A stretch of DNA of 33,153 nucleotides from NCBI GenBank assembly GCA_013202295.1, contig JABMRT010000135.1, forward strand, positions 1-33,153, in the 5' to 3' direction. The stretch comes from Candidatus Zhuqueibacterota bacterium (lineage in GTDB: Bacteria > Zhuqueibacterota > QNDG01 > JABMRT01). The notes under the pieces were generated by a model, which did not search any database, was not told where the DNA came from, and saw only the letters and a program-made list of their open reading frames with translations. Numbering within the stretch: the first letter of the stretch is position 1; the number at the start of each line of letters is the position of its first letter. Positions 12,222 to 24,514 of the stretch are shown here, piece after piece. Position numbers and translations under genes: made by a program.

Positions 12222-15200
12222 CTACCTCCCGGAAAGTCCTGTTTTGGAGAGGGGCAATTCAACCTGAATTGATGTCCCCTTCTTTGGCTCGGATTGAATA
12301 GTAATCGTGCCTCCAAGATTTGATGTTCTCTCCTGCATTCCCAGAATCCCGATTCCCCGGCTGGATGGGTCCCTTTGGTGAACCTTTTTCATATCAAAGC
12401 CGCGGCCGTCATCTGAGATTGTCAAACGCAATTTCCCACTCTTAAACATCCTGATGTGCAGTATCACTTCTTTCGCCCTGGCATGTTTCACTATATTATT
12501 TAGCGATTCCTGCACGATGCGATAAATCGCCGTTTCAATATCAGGATTCAACCGCTGTTGCAATCCTTTAAATTGCAGTTTAATTTTTATGCCCCATTGC
12601 TTTCGATTATGATTGACCAGCCATTTCAGAGCAGGTTCCAGTCCCAAATCATCAAGCATATTGGGTCTGAGATTGAGAGAGATATCATGCATCTGTTCAA
12701 GAAGCCCTTCAGCCAGTTGATCCGTTTCTTGTAAATGCACAGAAACCGGACGAGAGAGTTTTCCCTTCAATTCATTTTTAATGGATGTCAGATTGAGTTT
12801 GATACTAGTCAGGGACTGACCCATCTCATCATGCAACTCACGTGATAATCGTTTGCGTTCTTCTTCCTGTGTTCGAATGAGTTGTGTTGAGAGTCTTTGT
12901 AATTCTTTCCGATGCTGTTCAAGGGCTTTCTCCGCCATCTTGCGCTCTTCAATATCCCGGCAAACAGCCATAATTACTTTTTGTTCATGGAGCAAAAATT
13001 TGCTCAACATGATTTCTACAGGACAGAATGATCCATCTTTTCTTAGAATATTTGATTCAAATCGGACATTTGCTTTCTTATCAAGCTGCTTCCAGAATAT
13101 TTTTGGATCATCCCGTTTAAGAAAATCCGGATCCATATCTGTTATTTGCATTTTTAGAAATTCATCCTTGGTGTATCCCCAATCTTCCAGAGCCTTCGCA
13201 TTCACATCTAAAAAATGTCCCTCCATATCATGCAAGATAATCATAGACGATGTGTTCTCGAAGAGTGATCGAAATTTGATTTCATTTTCCAGGAGTGCTA
13301 TATCTGCCAGTTTTACCTCAGTCACATCATCAAACACTACCACAAGTTCACCAGAGGGTAGCTGATATATATAATTATCATACCACCCTGTGAGTTGGTT
13401 ATCTTTATACATTGAGATAGGATGATGTTTTGGTTTGCCCGTTTTCAGGACCGTTCTGAACGCTTCTATTAATCCAAACTCTTCGACTCCCGGACGTACA
13501 TCAAATATACTTTTTCCAATTAAAAACTTTCGACTCTGCCCATCAATCCGTTCACCTGCCATATTAAAATCTTTAAAAATGAAATCCTTACCGTGGTCTA
13601 TAACTTGATATACTGCCACCCCACTGCTCATGTGATTGAATAATTCGCGGTATCGTTCTTCACTTATAGCTATATATTTTTCAGCCATTCTACGTTCTGT
13701 CACATCTTGAATTATTCCGACTGCAACTTCAGCTTTGCCCGCTTTATTGAACTCAATATGCGAACGCGTTATAATCCATTTTATCTTGCCGTCAATGATC
13801 AATCTATGCTCTATGTTAGTCATGCCTGATTTATGCGATTTCTCGACTGACTCCGATATCATCTCAATATCATCTGGATGAAAAAACGCTTGATATGCCT
13901 TAAAGTTCTGAGGTATGCCATCCTCCGTAAAACCAATCACATCAAGTGCAGTTTGATTCCAATCAAATCGATCATTTTTAATATCATATTTCCATTGTCC
14001 GATCCCTGCGATCTCAAAAGCTTTCTGTAGATTACTCTCACTTTCTCGAAGCGTTTCATCATCCATCTGTCTTTTTGTTATATCGCGAATCGCTGCAATA
14101 TGTACTGACTTGCCTTTCCACTCGAAAAACCGGCCGGTTATCTCAACGATAAACTCTGAGCCGTCTTTCTTTTGATGATAACGCAGTGGAATAGTGACTA
14201 CATTATCTTTGATAATCGGTGTGGATTCGGTGACAAGTCGGGTTATATCCGGTTCGGCAGATAAATCGGTATTCTTTTTAGCGAGCATTTCATCATGTGT
14301 ATATCTATACAGAGCACATGCTGCTTCATTGGCCTCCAGAATCTGTCCGGTATCATTTTCTATTAAAAAGAGGGCATCCGATTCTAATTCAAATAATTGG
14401 CGATAAAGTTCTTCACTTTCTTGAAGTGCTACCATGATTTGCTTATGATCTGTAATATCCTGAAATGTTCCCCACATTCGTATGCATTTTCCGTCATGTA
14501 TCTCAGGATAGCCAGTCGTGTGCACCCACAACCGATTTCCCTTGGCTGATACAAGCTCCAACTCAACATCGTAGGGAATGCCTTCTTTCGTTGCGTGATT
14601 AACGACTTTAGCTATCTTGACTTGGCTTTCGTCAGGATAGAATTTAATCGCTTCTTCCACTGTTGGTATATAATCCATTGGTACTTCATGAATTCTTTTT
14701 GTTGTTTCCGTCCAAAATACAGTTTGGGTGTCAAGATTTATCTCCCAGCCTCCAACACGGGCGATCTCACCGGTTTTATTGAGTAACTCCTCGCTTTTCC
14801 ATAACGCTTCTTCAGATTTTTTACGGTCAGTTATATCTCGCGTTACTCCAATCACTTCAACTTTCCCTGTATCAGGATTGCTGCGGTAATATGATAGTAA
14901 TTCACCCCAAATCATGCTGCCATCTTTACATGGCAGTTCAAGTTCATCGATATGAACAACCGATTCGCCTGTCTTTTTAAACGTTTTAAAATGCACTGAT
15001 GTAAGTTTAAATAACTTTTCTCGGGATGATGGAATGACAGCTTCTTCTAAGGATTGAGTCATGATTTCTTCAGCCGTATACCCTCTCTGTTTAAACACGG
15101 AGGGACTCACATAAGTAAACTTTTGTGCTTCCACATCGAAAATCCAGATGACATCTGTAATATTCTCTGTAAGGAAACGATATTTCTTCTCACTTTGCGT

Positions 15201-16529
15201 AATTGCTTCATCTGCATTTTTACGTTCGGTAATATCTCGATCCACACCCCTGAATCCGACAAGATTATTTTCATCATCAAATATGGGAACAGCATTGCTC
15301 TCGAGCCACCTTATGCTTCCATCTTTATGACGCCATCGCATTTCAAGATTTTTCCATCCTGATTTATTCGCAATCCACTTAGGCATTTTAGATTCAATTA
15401 GCGCTCTGTCGTCCTCCAATATGAATTGAAAACTTGATTTAGCCAGTAATTCTTGTGGCGAATATCCAAGTATTTTTTCAATAGCAGGATTTGAATAGGT
15501 ATGCTTTCCATTTACATCAATCGTCCAGATCCAATCACGTGATGTTTCAAGTATATCACGAACAGTTTCCTCACTCCTTCTTAATGTCTCCTCTACCTGT
15601 TTGCGCTCTGTAATATCAATCACGGCACCACGCCACCCGATATGTTTCCCTTCACTGTGAACTGGAATGTTATATACTAGAATATTAATAGGTGTGCCAT
15701 CGTTTTTCATCGCCTGATATTCATTACCGGTTTGCCCCTTGTCCTCAAGCATCAACTGCATTTGCTTCCTGCCCCTTTTCATCTCTTCAGGAGGAAGCAA
15801 CTGTGATAGATTCAATCCCTTCTTTAATTCTGCTTGAGAATATCCAAACGTTTTAATCCCATGTTTATTGATATAGGTGAGATTGCCCCTTGTATCCATT
15901 TCAAAAACAGTTTGGGGTAACAACTCAGCCAGCTCACGGTAACGCTTTTCACTTTCAAGAAGAATATTCTCCGCTTTTTTTCGTTCAGATATATCACGAC
16001 AGATAGAAAGTGTTGTGGGTTTGTTTTTATAATGAAACAACCGTGAATGAATCTCAACCGGGATTTCATTGCCATCCTTAGTGATCAAAGTGCGTTCAAA
16101 AAGAGATTGCTTGTCTTGCATTAGTTTGCGGGATAATTTCGTAACATCAAGCAAGTGGTCTTTTGAGATAACATCCATTGGAGTACAATTCAGCAGTTCC
16201 TCTCGTGTGTATCCTAAAACCTCGACAGCCCTTTCATTGATATCCATAAAGGTATCAGGCATTTTTTCATCTGTGTATTGGTGAAGTAATACGAGATCAT
16301 TGGCATTTTGAAAAAGAAGTCTATACTTAGCTTCACTTTCGCCTAATTTATTTTCAAACCTTTTGCGCTCATTAATCTCATCCTGTAAATCCTCTAATAA
16401 ATTTAAGGCTGCATTGCGACTTTTGACCAATTCAATATTGGACGTTTTATCCTTAAATGTCCTCAGTTCCCTACGAAGTGATTGGACCTCATCAATCAAC
16501 TGAGTCTTGGTCATTTTTTCGACTTGCAT
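12222..16529 (-). CDS. Soluble sensor histidine kinase with nine PAS domains (NarX-type HisKA_3 core)
   Basis: A 1435-residue kinase without evident membrane segments. After a short coiled coil (1-60), nine consecutive PAS/PAC modules fill about 60-1205. They are countable by their opening helices (SEAKYRLLF, SEKRYREL, SEETVRDIL, SEKKYRFL, SEELLNKT, SEELYRQL, SESNLQKA, SEERYREL, NEIKFRSL) and nine closing D-I/V-T/E-E/D-R-K-like ends. The core is HisKA_3, with His1233 in ELHDEMGQSLTSIK, and a HATPase with SDDGRGFD and GIGILGMQERT. AGGAG seven bases before ATG 16529 fixes the start. It should autophosphorylate and pass phosphate to the coupled receiver at 11841. The signals sensed are unknown; no haem or flavin ligand was identified. 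Nine PAS modules is a high number. Confidence 0.95.
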   Translation of the reverse strand: MQVEKMTKTQLIDEVQSLRRELRTFKDKTSNIELVKSRNAALNLLEDLQDEINERKRFENKLGESEAKYRLLFQNANDLVLLHQYTDEKMPDTFMDINERAVEVLGYTREELLNCTPMDVISKDHLLDVTKLSRKLMQDKQSLFERTLITKDGNEIPVEIHSRLFHYKNKPTTLSICRDISERKKAENILLESEKRYRELAELLPQTVFEMDTRGNLTYINKHGIKTFGYSQAELKKGLNLSQLLPPEEMKRGRKQMQLMLEDKGQTGNEYQAMKNDGTPINILVYNIPVHSEGKHIGWRGAVIDITERKQVEETLRRSEETVRDILETSRDWIWTIDVNGKHTYSNPAIEKILGYSPQELLAKSSFQFILEDDRALIESKMPKWIANKSGWKNLEMRWRHKDGSIRWLESNAVPIFDDENNLVGFRGVDRDITERKNADEAITQSEKKYRFLTENITDVIWIFDVEAQKFTYVSPSVFKQRGYTAEEIMTQSLEEAVIPSSREKLFKLTSVHFKTFKKTGESVVHIDELELPCKDGSMIWGELLSYYRSNPDTGKVEVIGVTRDITDRKKSEEALWKSEELLNKTGEIARVGGWEINLDTQTVFWTETTKRIHEVPMDYIPTVEEAIKFYPDESQVKIAKVVNHATKEGIPYDVELELVSAKGNRLWVHTTGYPEIHDGKCIRMWGTFQDITDHKQIMVALQESEELYRQLFELESDALFLIENDTGQILEANEAACALYRYTHDEMLAKKNTDLSAEPDITRLVTESTPIIKDNVVTIPLRYHQKKDGSEFIVEITGRFFEWKGKSVHIAAIRDITKRQMDDETLRESESNLQKAFEIAGIGQWKYDIKNDRFDWNQTALDVIGFTEDGIPQNFKAYQAFFHPDDIEMISESVEKSHKSGMTNIEHRLIIDGKIKWIITRSHIEFNKAGKAEVAVGIIQDVTERRMAEKYIAISEERYRELFNHMSSGVAVYQVIDHGKDFIFKDFNMAGERIDGQSRKFLIGKSIFDVRPGVEEFGLIEAFRTVLKTGKPKHHPISMYKDNQLTGWYDNYIYQLPSGELVVVFDDVTEVKLADIALLENEIKFRSLFENTSSMIILHDMEGHFLDVNAKALEDWGYTKDEFLKMQITDMDPDFLKRDDPKIFWKQLDKKANVRFESNILRKDGSFCPVEIMLSKFLLHEQKVIMAVCRDIEERKMAEKALEQHRKELQRLSTQLIRTQEEERKRLSRELHDEMGQSLTSIKLNLTSIKNELKGKLSRPVSVHLQETDQLAEGLLEQMHDISLNLRPNMLDDLGLEPALKWLVNHNRKQWGIKIKLQFKGLQQRLNPDIETAIYRIVQESLNNIVKHARAKEVILHIRMFKSGKLRLTISDDGRGFDMKKVHQRDPSSRGIGILGMQERTSNLGGTITIQSEPKKGTSIQVELPLSKTGLSGR

Positions 16530-16689: not shown

Positions 16690-16983
16690 TTAATCCAATA
16701 TGTCTTCCCATAAATCCCGCCATTCCGGATTCATTTTCTCAATCAAATCTATCTTCTTTATCCTTGATCCAGCTTTAATCTGTTTTTCACGACTGATTGC
16801 CTCATAAGCATCTTCAAATACTTCATAATATACCAATTTATCTACGTTGTACCTGCTTGTAAAACTCTTAACGATCTTCTCTTTGTGTTCCCATACTCGT
16901 CTTGGTAAATCACCAGTTACACCCGTATAAAGTACCGTATTGTGCCGGTTCGTCAAGATGTATACGCAGTAGATTTTATCCAA
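16690..16983 (-). CDS. Small GIY-YIG endonuclease-domain protein
   Basis: About 97 residues forming one GIY-YIG domain of the YhbQ/UvrC-N type: CVYILTN as the GIY strand, LYTGVT as the YIG strand, RRVWEHK with the catalytic arginine, SFTSRYNVDKLVYYE and AISREKQIK, then a short helical tail. It would nick or cut DNA with one metal ion. The start is unsure. TTG 16983, with AAGGA very close upstream, gives the usual family length. The frame stays open to GTG 17061, but those extra residues are simply the flanking repeat translated. Its base composition and position inside a repeat-bounded block suggest a selfish or domesticated unit, not part of the signalling operon. Confidence 0.85.
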   Translation of the reverse strand: MDKIYCVYILTNRHNTVLYTGVTGDLPRRVWEHKEKIVKSFTSRYNVDKLVYYEVFEDAYEAISREKQIKAGSRIKKIDLIEKMNPEWRDLWEDILD

Positions 16984-16998
16984 TTTCCTTCTCAAAAG

Positions 16999-17062
16999 TG
17001 TCTCTGTGATGAACTCCGCAAAGCGGAGTGACGAAACAGCCCCCAAAGGAATCTGCATCACC
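16999..17062 (+). repeat. Palindromic repeat copy R
   Basis: Begins GTGTCTCTGTGA, has the hairpin CTCCGC-AAA-GCGGAG, then CAGCCCCCAAAGG and ends ATCTGCATCACC. Direct repeat of L1, with both arms of the hairpin changed together. The bases just after it (GCAAGGATGAAT) look like the start of a second, truncated inverted copy. Confidence 0.8.
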
Positions 17063-17075
17063 GCAAGGATGAATC

Positions 17076-19634
17076 TTACCCGTTGGCCTTATCCGGCACT
17101 TTGTATTTCTTTTTCTGACCCAATTCTTTATATAGCATATTCACTTCACGTTTTAAATCGATCATCCGGTCTTCACGACCAACCATAAGTTTGTTAAATT
17201 TTTCCAAATCATCTATTTTTTGTTTTAAAGACACCTCTGCGATTTTTCTTTTAGTAATATCTCTTATCACTGTGAGCCGACACTCCTCATTTTCTATCAC
17301 AATCGGTCTTGCTCTTACTTCAAGGAATAGCACTGAACCATCTTTTTTAATTCCCCGATGTTCATAGGGGGCAGTGATATTGTTTTTCATATTGGATTGA
17401 ACCATTTCCAAATCTTCAGGATGCACAAGATCTTTAAAATTCTTGGTTATAAACTCATCATGGGAATAGCCATAGATCTCTGCAATTTGCTGATTCACAT
17501 CAACAACCTTCCCCTGCCTGGAAATTCCAATACCCTCGAATGTGGCCTCTGCCAATCGTTTATATCTTTCTTCGCTCTCTTTTAAAGCGAATTCTGACTT
17601 TTTTCGTTCTGTGACATTTTCTACAACCGCAAGAATCCGGTTAATTTTCCCATCTTCATCCACCAATGGAACTGTTTGATAGAGTTGGAATTGCTCACCG
17701 ATTTTCATTTCAAATGAAGTTTCCTCACCTTTGAAAGTCTTCAAGTAATGTTTTTTAACAAGAGGTGCATTCTCTCCAAACACTTTTTTGAGTGGCAATC
17801 CAATAAAGTCATCAGGATTGAGTCCCTGATTCTTAAATTCCTGCCCGGAAGTGAATCCCACTGTCATATCTTTTTCTATGATAGATATGTAGGAATGTGG
17901 ATAATTCTCGGCGATCTTCTGAAGCAGGACTTGGTTATCTTTAAATGTTTTCTCGGATATTTTCCGCTCAGTAATATCATTAAAAAGTACGACGGCAAAA
18001 TCCTGCAAGGATTGAAATGCAAACACCTCATACGCTCCCAGAATCTTTCCATATTCATAATTCACTTGTTCAGAATGCCAGGGAATACCATCAGATGCCG
18101 CGCGCCGATACATGTGAGGAATCTCTGTTTCTGCCAGTGGAGGAAAAGCCTCTTCAATGGTTTTACCGACAAACTGCTTACAATCAACGCCCAATATCAT
18201 ACTGGCCGCCGGATTGTTATCCACAAATACAAGGCGTCTGCCCGCTTCGAGTTTATAGACATGCATCCCCATGGGTGTTTCATTGACGATCGCTCTGAAC
18301 TTCTCTTCACTCTCTCTGATTTGAGCTTCCATCTTCTGTCGTTCTGTCATATCCCGGCCGACCGAGACAAAAAATGATTTCCCTGATTCTGGATCTTGAA
18401 TACCCGTAACACGATACTCATAGGGAATTGACCGTCCATCCTTCGTGAGAAGTGAAAGTTCGATTGTTCCCTCTTTCTCTTCAGCAAGCCGTTCCATAAA
18501 GGGGATGCCTCGCTTTAAATCTTCTTTGCTGTAATAGGACATCGGCGCCGGCAATTTGGCGATCTCTTCCGCTGAATATCCGGACACATCTTCAAATGTT
18601 TTATTCCATCTTACAGCTTTGCCATTCTCCGGATCAAAAACAAAGAACGTATCCATTTGGGCATTTAAAGCATTGTCTGTAAAAGATTTTTCATGACGCA
18701 AAGCGCGTTCAGCCAACTCACGTGCTTCTTCAAGTTCATATTTATACAGGGCAAAGGCAATATCATCTACAAGTTCTTTGAACAATTCTTGTTCTTCTTC
18801 ATCATTTTGATAGACAAGAGGAACAGCCACCGACATCACACCAAATACTTTATCTGCATACTCAAGCTTCATCGTAAAGCGGCAGAAATCTTTCTCGTGT
18901 TCGTGAAGCGGACAATTCCGGCAAACAGGTCCCGAACTGGCGATGGCGGAGATCCCCGTGTCATTTAGCGCTAATTTAACACATTTCGGATATTTAGAGA
19001 CGGAACCCTCTAAATATTTTTGAAGTCGAAGGAACTCACCTTTTGGTGCCGCATGCGCAAATTTACTGAAACGATCTGAATGGTCATACAATGCAATCCA
19101 GGCTCGTTGATATCCCAATGTTTCAACCAGATTATCACAGGCGCCCTGAAGCATTCTATCTCTATCCGTCTCTTTGGTAATGAGCTGATTGACATTTCGG
19201 ATTGCCCGTAGCACCTGATTCACATGTGCCAATCGCTCTTCCCGATCCCTTAGCTGACGATCCATGTCATGTTTGAAAATAGCCAATTTGATTGTGCCTT
19301 GAATGGTTTGCCGATTGACAGGTTTGACGATAAATCCATAAGCCTGTGTTTCTTTCACCCGCTCAACTGTATCTGGATCTGCATAGGCAGTAAGAAATAT
19401 CACAGGAATATCATATTGGGCCTGAATACACTTCGTCGTCTCAATCCCGTTCATCGGACCATTGATCTTGATATCCATGAGAGCCAGATCGGGTGGATTA
19501 TCCTTGATCAGCTCAAGTGCTTCCTCACCGCTGGAAGCGATGCCAATCACCTCATAACTTAAACTCTTTAAAGTAGCCCTCACGTCTTCGGCAATAATCA
19601 TCTCATCTTCAACAATAAGAATTCTTGCACTCAT
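17076..19634 (-). CDS. Receiver-GAF-PAS4 signalling protein without kinase or other output domain
   Basis: An 852-residue soluble protein: receiver at about 4-120 (IVEDE, LALMDIKINGPMNG with the acceptor aspartate, FLTAYAD, FIVKPVN); a GAF-like domain at about 150-305 with a cysteine cluster GPVCRNCPLHEHEKDFCRF; then four PAS modules (about 315-440, 445-560, 570-690, 695-810), each ending in D-x-T-x-R-K/Q. The C-terminus is a helix FNKLMVGREDRMIDLKREVN. This short motif is common in PAS proteins, often before a kinase core, but here the protein stops. It may therefore act as a phospho-controlled scaffold. GGAG six bases before ATG 19634 fixes the start; an upstream ATG overlaps that site. The repeat-bounded GIY-YIG block begins 13 bases past its stop. 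Confidence 0.92.
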   Translation of the reverse strand: MSARILIVEDEMIIAEDVRATLKSLSYEVIGIASSGEEALELIKDNPPDLALMDIKINGPMNGIETTKCIQAQYDIPVIFLTAYADPDTVERVKETQAYGFIVKPVNRQTIQGTIKLAIFKHDMDRQLRDREERLAHVNQVLRAIRNVNQLITKETDRDRMLQGACDNLVETLGYQRAWIALYDHSDRFSKFAHAAPKGEFLRLQKYLEGSVSKYPKCVKLALNDTGISAIASSGPVCRNCPLHEHEKDFCRFTMKLEYADKVFGVMSVAVPLVYQNDEEEQELFKELVDDIAFALYKYELEEARELAERALRHEKSFTDNALNAQMDTFFVFDPENGKAVRWNKTFEDVSGYSAEEIAKLPAPMSYYSKEDLKRGIPFMERLAEEKEGTIELSLLTKDGRSIPYEYRVTGIQDPESGKSFFVSVGRDMTERQKMEAQIRESEEKFRAIVNETPMGMHVYKLEAGRRLVFVDNNPAASMILGVDCKQFVGKTIEEAFPPLAETEIPHMYRRAASDGIPWHSEQVNYEYGKILGAYEVFAFQSLQDFAVVLFNDITERKISEKTFKDNQVLLQKIAENYPHSYISIIEKDMTVGFTSGQEFKNQGLNPDDFIGLPLKKVFGENAPLVKKHYLKTFKGEETSFEMKIGEQFQLYQTVPLVDEDGKINRILAVVENVTERKKSEFALKESEERYKRLAEATFEGIGISRQGKVVDVNQQIAEIYGYSHDEFITKNFKDLVHPEDLEMVQSNMKNNITAPYEHRGIKKDGSVLFLEVRARPIVIENEECRLTVIRDITKRKIAEVSLKQKIDDLEKFNKLMVGREDRMIDLKREVNMLYKELGQKKKYKVPDKANG

Positions 19635-19758
19635 GCTAAACTCCGGCATTTCATTTTTGAAATCGATATTTTTTGTAGACTGATTTTTAGTCGTGTCCTA
19701 AAATATAAGAATCGCAATTCAGGATCATACTCAATGGTTAAAATCGATAAGCTTAAAA

Positions 19759-21264
19759 TTATTTTCTGTTTATTGGCTTATCTATTTGTATGGTAAATCT
19801 TGTCCCGCCCTCTCTGCTGATTTCTATCGACCCACCAATTTGCTCGGTCAGAATATGAATAAGCTGCATACCTAACGAACCCTTTTTTTGAAAATAGACA
19901 TCATCAGGCAAACCAATACCATCATCGATAACCGTAAGTTCATATTGATCTTTTACTGATTTAAATAGAATCTGAATTTTGCCTTTTCTTTCATCCGGAA
20001 AAGCATATTTTATCGAATTGGTGATCAGTTCATTGATGATCAATCCGAAAGGAATGGCAAGATCAATGCTCAATTCAACCGCCTCAACTTTAATCTCCAA
20101 TCGGACTTTACTGATATCAACACTGGCTCGAACAATCTCGGTTGTCATGGTCTTCACATAGTCATTAAATTGAATGTTTGCAAAATTATTCGAACGATAA
20201 AGTTTCTCATGAACCAGTGCCATTGAGTAAACCCGCTGTCTGCTGTTCTCAAACGCTTGTTTGGCTGCCTTATCTTCTATACGGTAGGATTGCAAGTTGA
20301 GCAGGCTGATGATAATTTGAAGATTGTTCTTTACACGATGATGTATTTCTTTCAAAAGAATTTCTTTTTCTTCAAGGGATTTCCGGATCGTCTCATCTGC
20401 ATGTCTTCGATTCGTGATATCACGATCGATACCTCTGTAGCCCAAAATATTGCCTTTTGAATCCAGAATGGGCATTCCGCTGGTCTCCAGAATGACCTGA
20501 TGTCCCCTTTTATGAATGGAATGACTCTCCAGATTATGAATAGGAGATTTTTCTTTAACATGCCTCTGGAAAATCTTTAAATTGCGTTCAGCCTCATCAG
20601 GAGCCATGATTGAAAAGGGGCGGCGTCCAACCATTTCCTCTGCATTGTATCCAATCAGTTCCTTCACATTGGGACTACAATAGGTTAACACACCCTTGGC
20701 ATTGACCTCCCATATCCAATCGCTCGTACTTTCAACGAGAGCACGGAACCGCTCTTCACTGGCACGAAGCGCCTCTTCAGCATAAGAGATTTGTACGACC
20801 TCTGCGACAGTCTTGGCAATGGTTTCAAAAAACTGGTCTTCTTCGGGTGAAATCACATGCTGTGTAAACAATGCCATCACACCCAAAGGCTGATTATCTT
20901 TTGAATGTAACTTGTATCCGGCAAATCCGATCAGATCCAGCTCTTTCGCCCACTTCTGATCATGTACTCTCAGATCTTTTGTTACCGTATCCGTGATAAA
21001 CTTCTCATCCTTGCCCGATGCAACACGACCGATCTTGTAACATCCGAAGGGCACACGCTGGTGAACTTTTCCATCAAGGTGGGTATATCGACCCGCACTT
21101 GCTGAAAGATGCAGACAGAGTTCCTTGTGCCGACACACATGGGGGCCGCTTTTATATTGAGCATGGATACAATCCAATGAACAGCGATCACCTGGTTGGA
21201 TCAACCAGATACGTGCAAAATCCGCATGAAAAGCTTTCACAATATGCTCAACAACCATTTGCAT
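19759..21264 (-). CDS. GAF-PAS-HisKA_2 histidine kinase, 3' half of a frameshifted gene
   Basis: 501 residues: GAF domain at about 1-160 (FHADFARIWLIQPGDRC, then C-x4-C and C-x5-C pairs), PAS at about 167-285 (SEERFRALVESTSDWIWEV), HisKA_2 with phospho-acceptor LKEIHHRVKNNLQIIISLLNLQS, and HATPase with IINELITNSIKYAFP, VIDDGIGLPDD and LGMQLIHILTEQIGG. The kinase core is complete. The ATG 21264 has no ribosome site and lies two bases past the stop of the preceding gene; the reading frame stays open upstream as ANILNVK. In relatives I remember, this GAF domain continues directly from the PAS protein upstream. So this is most likely the second half of one gene of about 930 codons, translated, if at all, by coupling. 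Confidence 0.9.
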   Translation of the reverse strand: MQMVVEHIVKAFHADFARIWLIQPGDRCSLDCIHAQYKSGPHVCRHKELCLHLSASAGRYTHLDGKVHQRVPFGCYKIGRVASGKDEKFITDTVTKDLRVHDQKWAKELDLIGFAGYKLHSKDNQPLGVMALFTQHVISPEEDQFFETIAKTVAEVVQISYAEEALRASEERFRALVESTSDWIWEVNAKGVLTYCSPNVKELIGYNAEEMVGRRPFSIMAPDEAERNLKIFQRHVKEKSPIHNLESHSIHKRGHQVILETSGMPILDSKGNILGYRGIDRDITNRRHADETIRKSLEEKEILLKEIHHRVKNNLQIIISLLNLQSYRIEDKAAKQAFENSRQRVYSMALVHEKLYRSNNFANIQFNDYVKTMTTEIVRASVDISKVRLEIKVEAVELSIDLAIPFGLIINELITNSIKYAFPDERKGKIQILFKSVKDQYELTVIDDGIGLPDDVYFQKKGSLGMQLIHILTEQIGGSIEISREGGTRFTIQIDKPINRK

Positions 21265-21266
21265 TT

Positions 21267-22550
21267 TTACATTGAGGATATTTGCCCGAGTAAATCTTCT
21301 TTTAAATCATTTAGACCAATCAACCACTTCTCGTTCTGCTTTCGAAGTGTAATGTCCTCGCCTGAGCTAAGAGAACTAACGGTCTTTCCATCTACATCTT
21401 TGATGAGTGTATTGTGCCAGGCGATGAGACGCTCATCCCCATGTCTGGTTAACACCGGATTTTCATGATATTCAACAGGTTTTACCTTTCCATGCATAAT
21501 TTTATCAAATACAGACTTGACCTCTTTACGGTTTATCTCTGGGATGAATGTATCAAACCAGTTTTGTCCCAGAATCTCCTTCTCCGAACACCCTAATATC
21601 TCACACCCCTTCTCATTGATCATCGCTACAGTCTGATCACGGTTAATTACCACAAACATCACACCTGCAAGATTAAAATATTGTTGAGCACGTGTATGTT
21701 CAGATTGCACTGCAAGCTCAGCCTCTCGTTTTACTGTAATATCACGAGCCGTAGAAAGCACGACATTCTTACCCCGCAACTTGATTGGATGCCCAGTTAT
21801 CTCAACATACTGTGGTTTCCCGTTTTTTATAATCAATTTGAGTTCATCCGGCCCCGTGATGTGACCCTGTATTTGCCGGGCGAAAATGCCTAACGCTTTT
21901 TTTATTTGATCAGGAGCCAATAGACCGGCTTTTTGGAAGTTTTTTCCAATGAGCTCATCACGTTTCATCCCAACCAGTTTCTCAGCAGCTTTATTTCCAT
22001 CAATGAACCGGCCTTTCAGATCGTTCACATACATTGCATCCGGTGCATCATCAAAAAGAATTTGGAAGCGTTCCTGACTCTCTTGCAATGCTTCTATCGC
22101 GTATAAATGGGCGGTCACGTCACGAATCGCACCGATCATTCCGGCCACTTGCCCTTCTTCATCTTTTATCGGTGACTCATCGACTTCAACAATTCGTTTC
22201 TCACCATCTTTACAACAAACTTCAAGCATATATGGTTTTTGTCTTCTTCCAGTCTTCAATGCTTTTTGCGTAGCCTTAAAACCCTTTTTATTCATGGAGT
22301 GATCGGTTGTCAAGGTCGTCCATTTAACCATCATTTCATCTGGAGTATATCCCATAATCTCAAAGCAAGCAGGACTGACATACGTCAATTGATGTTTTGA
22401 ATTATGGATGTAAAAAATTTCATTGGCATGCTCAGTGATCTGCTGAAGCCGATCTTGACTGGTTTTTAGTATTTCTACGGTTGTCTTCTGATCCGCTAAA
22501 ACCTTTTCCAAAAATTTGACTCGCTCTTCAAGAGCAGTTATATTAGACAT
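21267..22550 (-). CDS. Three-PAS sensor fragment, 5' half of a frameshifted histidine kinase
   Basis: 427 residues: short coiled coil (1-35), then three PAS modules at about 30-150, 155-275 and 285-405, closing with AIRDVTAHLY, TARDITVKRE and GEDITLRKQ. The last natural part is WLIGLNDLKEDLLG, which in similar kinases leads into a GAF domain; here the frame breaks to QISSM and TAA. The missing continuation is the next gene, in the frame reached by removing one base near 21278-21285. AGGA eight bases before ATG 22550 supports the start. Without the second half it has no catalytic domain. Confidence 0.88.
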   Translation of the reverse strand: MSNITALEERVKFLEKVLADQKTTVEILKTSQDRLQQITEHANEIFYIHNSKHQLTYVSPACFEIMGYTPDEMMVKWTTLTTDHSMNKKGFKATQKALKTGRRQKPYMLEVCCKDGEKRIVEVDESPIKDEEGQVAGMIGAIRDVTAHLYAIEALQESQERFQILFDDAPDAMYVNDLKGRFIDGNKAAEKLVGMKRDELIGKNFQKAGLLAPDQIKKALGIFARQIQGHITGPDELKLIIKNGKPQYVEITGHPIKLRGKNVVLSTARDITVKREAELAVQSEHTRAQQYFNLAGVMFVVINRDQTVAMINEKGCEILGCSEKEILGQNWFDTFIPEINRKEVKSVFDKIMHGKVKPVEYHENPVLTRHGDERLIAWHNTLIKDVDGKTVSSLSSGEDITLRKQNEKWLIGLNDLKEDLLGQISSM

Positions 22551-22592: not shown

Positions 22593-22964
22593 TTATTCTT
22601 CTGCCAATAATTCATTGATCATTTCCAGTAATTCTTCACTGGAAAACGGTTTGGCCACTGTCCGGTCCGCGCCTACTCGTTTGGCAATATCCAGATAGCC
22701 GTACGGCTCATTGCTGCCCCCACCCGACATGGCAATAATTTTCAGGTTTGGATAATCCTTCTTTAATTCGATGATTGTGGTAATGCCCTCTTTGCCGGGC
22801 ATTACAATATCCGTAATGATTAAATCAAAAGGCTCTTTCTTATGCATGGCAATACCCACACCACTGTTTGGTACATCGATTATAAAATGGCCTTTATAAA
22901 CCAGAAGTTTTCTGAGTGCAGTAAGTAGATGTGGATTGTCATCAATAATTAGAATGCGTGCCAA
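22593..22964 (-). CDS. Single-domain response regulator (CheY-like)
   Basis: A 123-residue receiver: IIDDN acidic pair at 8-9, acceptor in LIITDIVMPG, IIAMSGGG with the switch Ser, and VAKPFSSEEL with the conserved lysine. No output domain. It starts at TTG 22964, supported by GGAAGGAG six bases upstream. It lies 32 bases past the upstream kinase and 42 before the split kinase, so it probably receives phosphate from one or both. Confidence 0.93.
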   Translation of the reverse strand: MARILIIDDNPHLLTALRKLLVYKGHFIIDVPNSGVGIAMHKKEPFDLIITDIVMPGKEGITTIIELKKDYPNLKIIAMSGGGSNEPYGYLDIAKRVGADRTVAKPFSSEELLEMINELLAEE

Positions 22965-22996: not shown

Positions 22997-24094
22997 CTAC
23001 TCTCCTTTAAACTTCATGCGAAATTCTGTCCCCTTCTCAACATGCCAACTCGTTTCGGCCTTAATTTGATCGCAGAGAATTCGAACCAGTTTCAATCCAA
23101 GTGTATCAATTTCCTTTGTATGAATATCCTTGGCCATGCCGATACCGTCATCACGGATTGCAATCTCATGCACACCCTTCTTAGTATGCAAAGAAATTTG
23201 AACCATTCCCTTGCGGTTTTTCGGAAATGCATATTTCAGTGCATTGCTGACAAGTTCGTTTATAATCAGTCCGCATGGAACGGCCTGATCAAGACTCAAA
23301 GAAATGGGCCGGATTTTGAATTCCATTCTAATACGGTTCCCGTGACCGTAGGTCTGAAACAATTCCATGACCAAAGCTTCGATATAAACCTTAAGATCGA
23401 TAGTTGCGAAATTCTCGGATTGATATAACTTTTCGTGAACCAGTGCCATAGACCGGACACGCCGGTTGCTTTGTTCAAGTATTTTTAAAATATTCGGATC
23501 GCTGATCCGATGAGCCTGCAAGTTTAAAAGACTGCTAATTATCTGCAAATTATTTTTTACACGGTGATGAACTTCTTTGAGCAGGATCTCCTTTTCCTTT
23601 AAATCTTTTTGTAACTGATCCTCTGCATGTTTTCGCTCAGTCACATCATTTGAGACCTTGATGAAATGTGTAATCTCTCCTGCTTCATTCTTAAGCGGAG
23701 AGATCTGTGCGGCCTCCCAGTAAGATTTGCCGCTTTTCCGTTTGTTCTCAAACTCACCCATCCATGTCTCGCCTGATCTAATCCTGTTCCACAATGTTTG
23801 ATAGAATATATTGTCTTGTCGGCCAGAGCTCAAGATCCTGGGATTTCTTCCCACTACCTCATTTGAAGTATAGCCAGTAACAAGACAAAACATAGAATTT
23901 ACGTATTCAATGCATCCTTCTGTATTGGCAATCACTGTAATGCTGGGACTCTGGGAGACGGCAATGGACAACTTTTTCCATTCTTTTTCAAGCTTCGAAA
24001 GGTCATTTATTTTATCCTGGAGCCAGAGGTTTTTCTTTTTTTCAGCGTTGAGCGCCTTCTCAAGTTTTTTGATATTTTCTTTATTTTCACTCAT
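22997..24094 (-). CDS. PAS-HisKA_2 soluble histidine kinase
   Basis: 365 residues without evident membrane helices: coiled coil at 1-45, one PAS domain at about 45-165 (AVSQSPSITVIANTEG, GRNPRILSSGRQ, VSNDVTERKHAE), HisKA_2 with LKEVHHRVKNNLQIISSLLNLQ, and HATPase with IINELVSNALKYAFP, IRDDGIGMAKD and LGLKLVRILCDQI. The PAS domain resembles aerotaxis-type flavin-binding PAS sequences (ENKRKSGKSYWEA), which is a weak hint only. ATG 24094 lies 6 bases past the end of the decayed kinase gene, so it was part of the same transcript. It is a close paralogue of the kinase half at 19759. Confidence 0.94.
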   Translation of the reverse strand: MSENKENIKKLEKALNAEKKKNLWLQDKINDLSKLEKEWKKLSIAVSQSPSITVIANTEGCIEYVNSMFCLVTGYTSNEVVGRNPRILSSGRQDNIFYQTLWNRIRSGETWMGEFENKRKSGKSYWEAAQISPLKNEAGEITHFIKVSNDVTERKHAEDQLQKDLKEKEILLKEVHHRVKNNLQIISSLLNLQAHRISDPNILKILEQSNRRVRSMALVHEKLYQSENFATIDLKVYIEALVMELFQTYGHGNRIRMEFKIRPISLSLDQAVPCGLIINELVSNALKYAFPKNRKGMVQISLHTKKGVHEIAIRDDGIGMAKDIHTKEIDTLGLKLVRILCDQIKAETSWHVEKGTEFRMKFKGE

Positions 24095-24100
24095 CTGATC

Positions 24101-24514
24101 TCAAGCCTCATCAGCTTCGTGTTTAATTGGGTAATGAAAGGCAATCGTAAAGCACGATCCTTTGTCAGAAGAATATTCCAGATGTCCGTGAATCTAATTG
24201 GTTAACATCTTTACGAGTTGCAGACCCAGAAACATATCCAGCCGGATACCCCGCTCGCGATGCCACTTGGCTTCAAGTACACCAAATGCAGCGACAGTAT
24301 CCTTTTCATAATCCTCATCCGGATTCAATTCAGGCACCGCATCACTTTTTTCTAAAACATGGAGTATCGCTTCGGACAATCCGGCAATTGAGACACGCCA
24401 AGCCTCTGCCAGCGTGGAGGTATATTTCGTATAGTCCCGTTCTTTGGCATAGTTGAGCACTCGGTGCATCAGCCAATCTTCATTGGTTTTTATAAGCTCT
24501 ATTAGTGTTTGCAT
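24101..24514 (-). pseudogene. Collapsed histidine kinase: RsbRD-like N-terminus joined to the last part of the ATPase domain, with in-frame TAG
   Basis: Residues 1 to about 95 (MQTLIELIKTNEDWLMHRVL, TKYTSTLAEAWRVSIAGLSEA, FGVLEAKWHRERGI) match the RsbRD-type N-terminal domain found at the head of sensor kinases. Directly after DMF comes LGLQLVKMLTN, the G2 end of a HATPase domain, then TAG at 24194-24196. The same frame continues IHGHLEYSSDKGSCFTIAFH to TGA at 24101, the normal kinase C-terminus. So the middle of the gene was deleted in frame, and a CAG or similar codon became TAG. LGL occurs in both parent regions and may have been the deletion joint. GGAG supports ATG 24514 over TTG 24535. 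Confidence 0.85.

Follow-up and report, generated by a model that had tools for sequence, protein, structure and literature searches.

In globin-coupled sensors the dimer interface is formed by helices G and H (PMC12805357), and the N-terminal domain of RsbR has been described as a non-heme globin domain (PMC6614362). A further kind of described system that bears on the locus analyzed here is the HisKA_2/HATPase_c sensor kinase (PF07568 with PF02518). The window (the whole 33,153-nucleotide stretch of contig JABMRT010000135.1) carries on its minus strand, at 24101-24514, a gene remnant whose tail is the C-terminal end of the ATPase of such kinases. Unlike them, the remnant lacks HisKA_2, any PAS domains and most of the ATPase, since only positions 75-108 of the 111 of HATPase_c are left, and hence it cannot be a kinase. 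We conclude that it is very probably a kinase pseudogene, produced by an in-frame deletion and a nonsense change.

The remnant is read from 24514 as 106 sense codons (24197-24514) that begin with the ATG (24512-24514), followed by a TAG, 30 open codons and a TGA, whereas the plus-strand reading of the same interval was ruled out by several stops. The start codon is preceded by CGGAGAATAGTTCT, with a GGAG 9 bases upstream of the ATG, and the protein sequence is MQTLIELIKTNEDWLM...RGIRLDMFLGL / QLVKMLTN*IHGHLEYSSDKGSCFTIAFHYPIKHEADEA, where the slash follows FLGL and the asterisk is the TAG. Residues 1-98, ending in FLGL (24221-24514), are the N-terminal part of an unnamed sensor domain with a predicted globin fold. 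The putative deletion junction, CTG GGT CTG (Leu-Gly-Leu, 24221-24229), is common to this front domain and to the ATPase tail. The region 24104-24229 encodes about 35 residues from the C-terminal end of a HATPase_c of the HisKA_2 type, plus a short tail. This region is interrupted by the premature TAG at 24194-24196, and the original stop, TGA at 24101-24103, is separated by 6 bases from the start codon of the kinase gene that follows. The earlier note, which did not give the strand, had described a front domain that runs in frame into the end of a HATPase domain at LGL, and a TAG inside the ATPase tail after which the frame stays open to that TGA; the homologue alignments and the tail profile presented below agree with this, and all the details of the observation that were open to checking proved correct.

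Residues 1-98 matched nine homologues at 32-60% identity, four of them from genomes of the same phylum and five from other records titled cyanobacteria or Bacillota. All the alignments of the front piece end at FLGL or at most one residue from it, but none of the nine homologues stops there: each lies in an open frame of 601-1314 aa. Past FLGL, in the second half of the domain, which is conserved, the homologues share [FM]KYYRQxYLDL...FDRIELxxCxEW, followed by a PAS-type region, and this continuation, which is less well kept in the homologues L006 and L007, is absent from the remnant. The large in-frame loss joining two ends at LGL, proposed in the earlier note, is thus borne out by nine of nine homologues continuing in long open frames. 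The missing continuation was also searched for elsewhere in the genome and was not found (best E 0.19, in the PAS region only), so that a relocation of the lost middle within the genome was rejected. The remnant is the sole copy of the front domain in its genome, and the domain was not found in the two genomes of the same family that were examined.

When the tail was compared with Pfam HATPase_c, the match had an E of 0.014, which is below the curated cut-off. The tail also matched the ends of HisKA_2 kinases encoded by related genomes, at 45-55% identity for the best of them, and a profile built from 23 such kinase tails gave the real tail 49.5 bits, versus 12.4 bits for the best of 5000 shuffles, so that the match is not due to chance. 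The part that follows the TAG scored 25.8 bits by itself on the same profile, again above the best shuffle. The TAG stands at the Gln of an LTxQ sequence present in most related kinases, and this observation upholds the proposed nonsense mutation in the tail. Since the Gln codon is mostly CAG, a single transition suffices to generate the TAG. A reading of TAG as a sense codon was ruled out because several long genes of the window end in TAG, e.g., those at 22997-24094 and 12222-16529.

The codons at the junction of the remnant are CTG GGT CTG CAA. At the corresponding LGL, an intact kinase (L017) has CTG GGT CTG CAG, and intact front domains have CTG GGA CTG (L005) or CTG GGG CTG (L010). A deletion between two LGL stretches of this kind that share a codon phase would keep the frame automatically. 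No convincing larger-scale flanking repeat that could explain the deletion was found around the remnant. In the explanation that we favor, the ancestor would have been a multidomain cytoplasmic histidine kinase composed of the globin-fold sensor domain, one or more PAS domains, HisKA_2 and HATPase_c. The middle would have been removed, in frame, by a deletion of some 1 to 3.4 kb that ran from the Leu-Gly-Leu codons of the front domain to those of the ATPase and was possibly mediated by the short repeat at these codons, and a C-to-T type change would have converted the Gln codon of the ATPase tail into TAG. The loss is estimated at ~1140 codons if the ancestor was like L005 (about 1283 aa), or at ~350 codons if it was a kinase of minimal size that had a single PAS domain. 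We infer that a deletion took place, that a short repeat mediated it, how much was lost, which of the two events came first and that the function is gone. The remnant keeps 25 of the 26 positions that are conserved in at least 8 of the 9 homologues, and the tail can be recognised just as easily; the lesions therefore look recent. From the sequence, this suggests an ordinary and apparently recent gene death; selection on the short product would, however, likewise predict an in-frame join and 25 of 26 kept positions. No relevant description of a comparable case was retrieved from the literature.

The deletion could instead have fused two neighbours; the front domain would then derive from a signalling protein, and the ATPase tail from a second kinase encoded just downstream. 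The front domain is promiscuous, with HisKA_2, other kinase or GGDEF-EAL outputs across organisms, and several kinases stand in tandem within the cluster. However, two full-length homologues from the same phylum, L005 (about 1288 aa) and L007 (1314 aa), are PAS-rich kinases that already have the HisKA_2/HATPase_c output to which the tail belongs, so that one gene is enough and a fusion of two appears rather unlikely. If it were true, the outcome would be the same, a pseudogene.

The remnant stands first in a cluster of kinase and response-regulator genes, all described here on the minus strand. The next gene (22997-24094) encodes an intact PAS-HisKA_2-HATPase_c histidine kinase, and is followed by a single-domain response regulator (22593-22964); these genes next to the remnant are still open. 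A second broken kinase (19759-22550) then consists of two parts in different frames, a PAS-PAS-PAS part (21267-22550) and a GAF-like-PAS-HisKA_2-HATPase part (19759-21264). In the relative L081, a member of the same order, one frame of 1680 aa is continuous across the break of this second kinase (window positions 21255-21310). Two of the 14 HisKA_2 matches of the genome are in the cluster of the remnant. Between 17076-19649 and 12222-16529, the kinase cluster also contains a gene with a GIY-YIG nuclease domain (16690-17061).

The presence of two broken kinases within 5 kb suggests either decay of the cluster, which may be decaying as a whole, or a local sequence error. In the latter case the join or the TAG, together with the frame change of the neighbouring kinase, would be absent from the organism, and the proximity of the two broken genes in a draft genome of 303 contigs is compatible with such an assembly or sequencing error. 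Assemblers, however, commonly use words longer than about 9 bases, and the likely common sequence at the join is only about 9 bases; furthermore, no break was seen in the other long frames of the window that were checked. We consider this explanation very unlikely.

What the short product might still do was evaluated with an AlphaFold2 model (pLDDT 83, pTM 0.74) made not of the remnant, but of a homologous domain that is intact. The modelled helices of this domain comprise residues 2-12, 14-27, 35-58, 75-88, 94-114 and 119-171. The remnant ends at model position 100, shortly after the fifth helix begins, so that little of this helix and nothing of the sixth is left. The 106-aa product represents about 100 of the roughly 150 residues of the domain. 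The 106-residue peptide may still be translated, but by analogy with globin-coupled sensors we expect it neither to adopt the sensor fold nor to dimerise, and it should not be able to phosphorylate anything. The earlier note had regarded the product as mainly an RsbRD-type domain that could act by itself as a regulatory domain; the absence of the last two helices makes this unlikely. That such a product is still made and acts by itself is scarcely credible. In its favor are an undamaged start codon with its GGAG and the retention of 25 of the 26 strongly conserved positions, but a recent lesion also predicts high conservation. Against it, the cut falls inside predicted helix 5 so that the last two helices are lost, helices G and H are the dimer interface in globin-coupled sensors (PMC12805357), and none of the homologues found is short and free-standing.

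The front domain deserves attention in its own right. At least nine other proteins carry it in intact form, and across several phyla it is joined to kinases and GGDEF-EAL proteins (intact domains of alignment A1 are located at L010:7977-8492, L005:4645-5160, L008:5886-6401 and others). The outputs of L010, L006 and L013 are other kinase types (L013 was read only up to the start of the kinase), and those of the cyanobacterial homologues are of the GGDEF-EAL type, as read from their sequences. A distant relative of the front domain, with 28% identity, was observed in a hybrid kinase (L089:2953-5358) of the Rhodovulum plasmid pRSMBA that adjoins the torA/torD (TMAO reductase) genes, a neighbourhood that hints at redox state or oxygen as the signal.

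A search of Pfam and NCBIfam gave no model for the family. The front piece had been labeled RsbRD-like, and this label did not hold: no PF14361 match was obtained with the remnant, with five intact homologous domains or in the genome, and the comparison of the front-domain profile with ten RsbRD_N members gave a probability of 0.3%. Membership of the RsbRD family was rejected on both grounds, and what is shared is only the predicted globin-like fold, the model of the intact domain being similar overall to the RsbR N-terminal domain 2bnl (TM 0.55-0.58). Unlike RsbR/RsbRD, moreover, the front domain is not followed by a STAS domain. Protoglobin (PF11563) likewise gave no profile match, and 0.3% in the profile comparison, so that membership by sequence was rejected as well. 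No sequence relatives were found among solved structures. When the model of the intact domain was compared with solved folds, the best Foldseek matches were globin-coupled sensors (E 0.013, TM about 0.6), and the predicted fold is similar to that of HemAT, AfGcHK, DosC and BpeGReg (TM about 0.53-0.64), although the identity to these sensors is only 8-14%. As in globin-coupled sensors, the front domain is N-terminal in kinases or GGDEF-EAL proteins, and its fourth helix ends with a near-invariant His. This residue, His87 in A1 numbering, is present in 10 of 11 sequences, and aligns with a His of protoglobin sequences in a profile alignment that is itself non-significant. To judge from the sequences, heme binding by the front domain is a lead, not a result. 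Tentatively, the front domain could be an unnamed globin-fold family and a possible uncatalogued heme or redox sensor, with a His where globins hold heme.

These results make the remnant a clear example of the death of a signalling gene in which both scars can still be read, and they are a warning to annotators that the 106-residue frame should not be called a functional regulatory protein. The unnamed domain family, of which the window holds a broken copy, is more worth following than the death of the gene, and this is to be done in its intact homologues.
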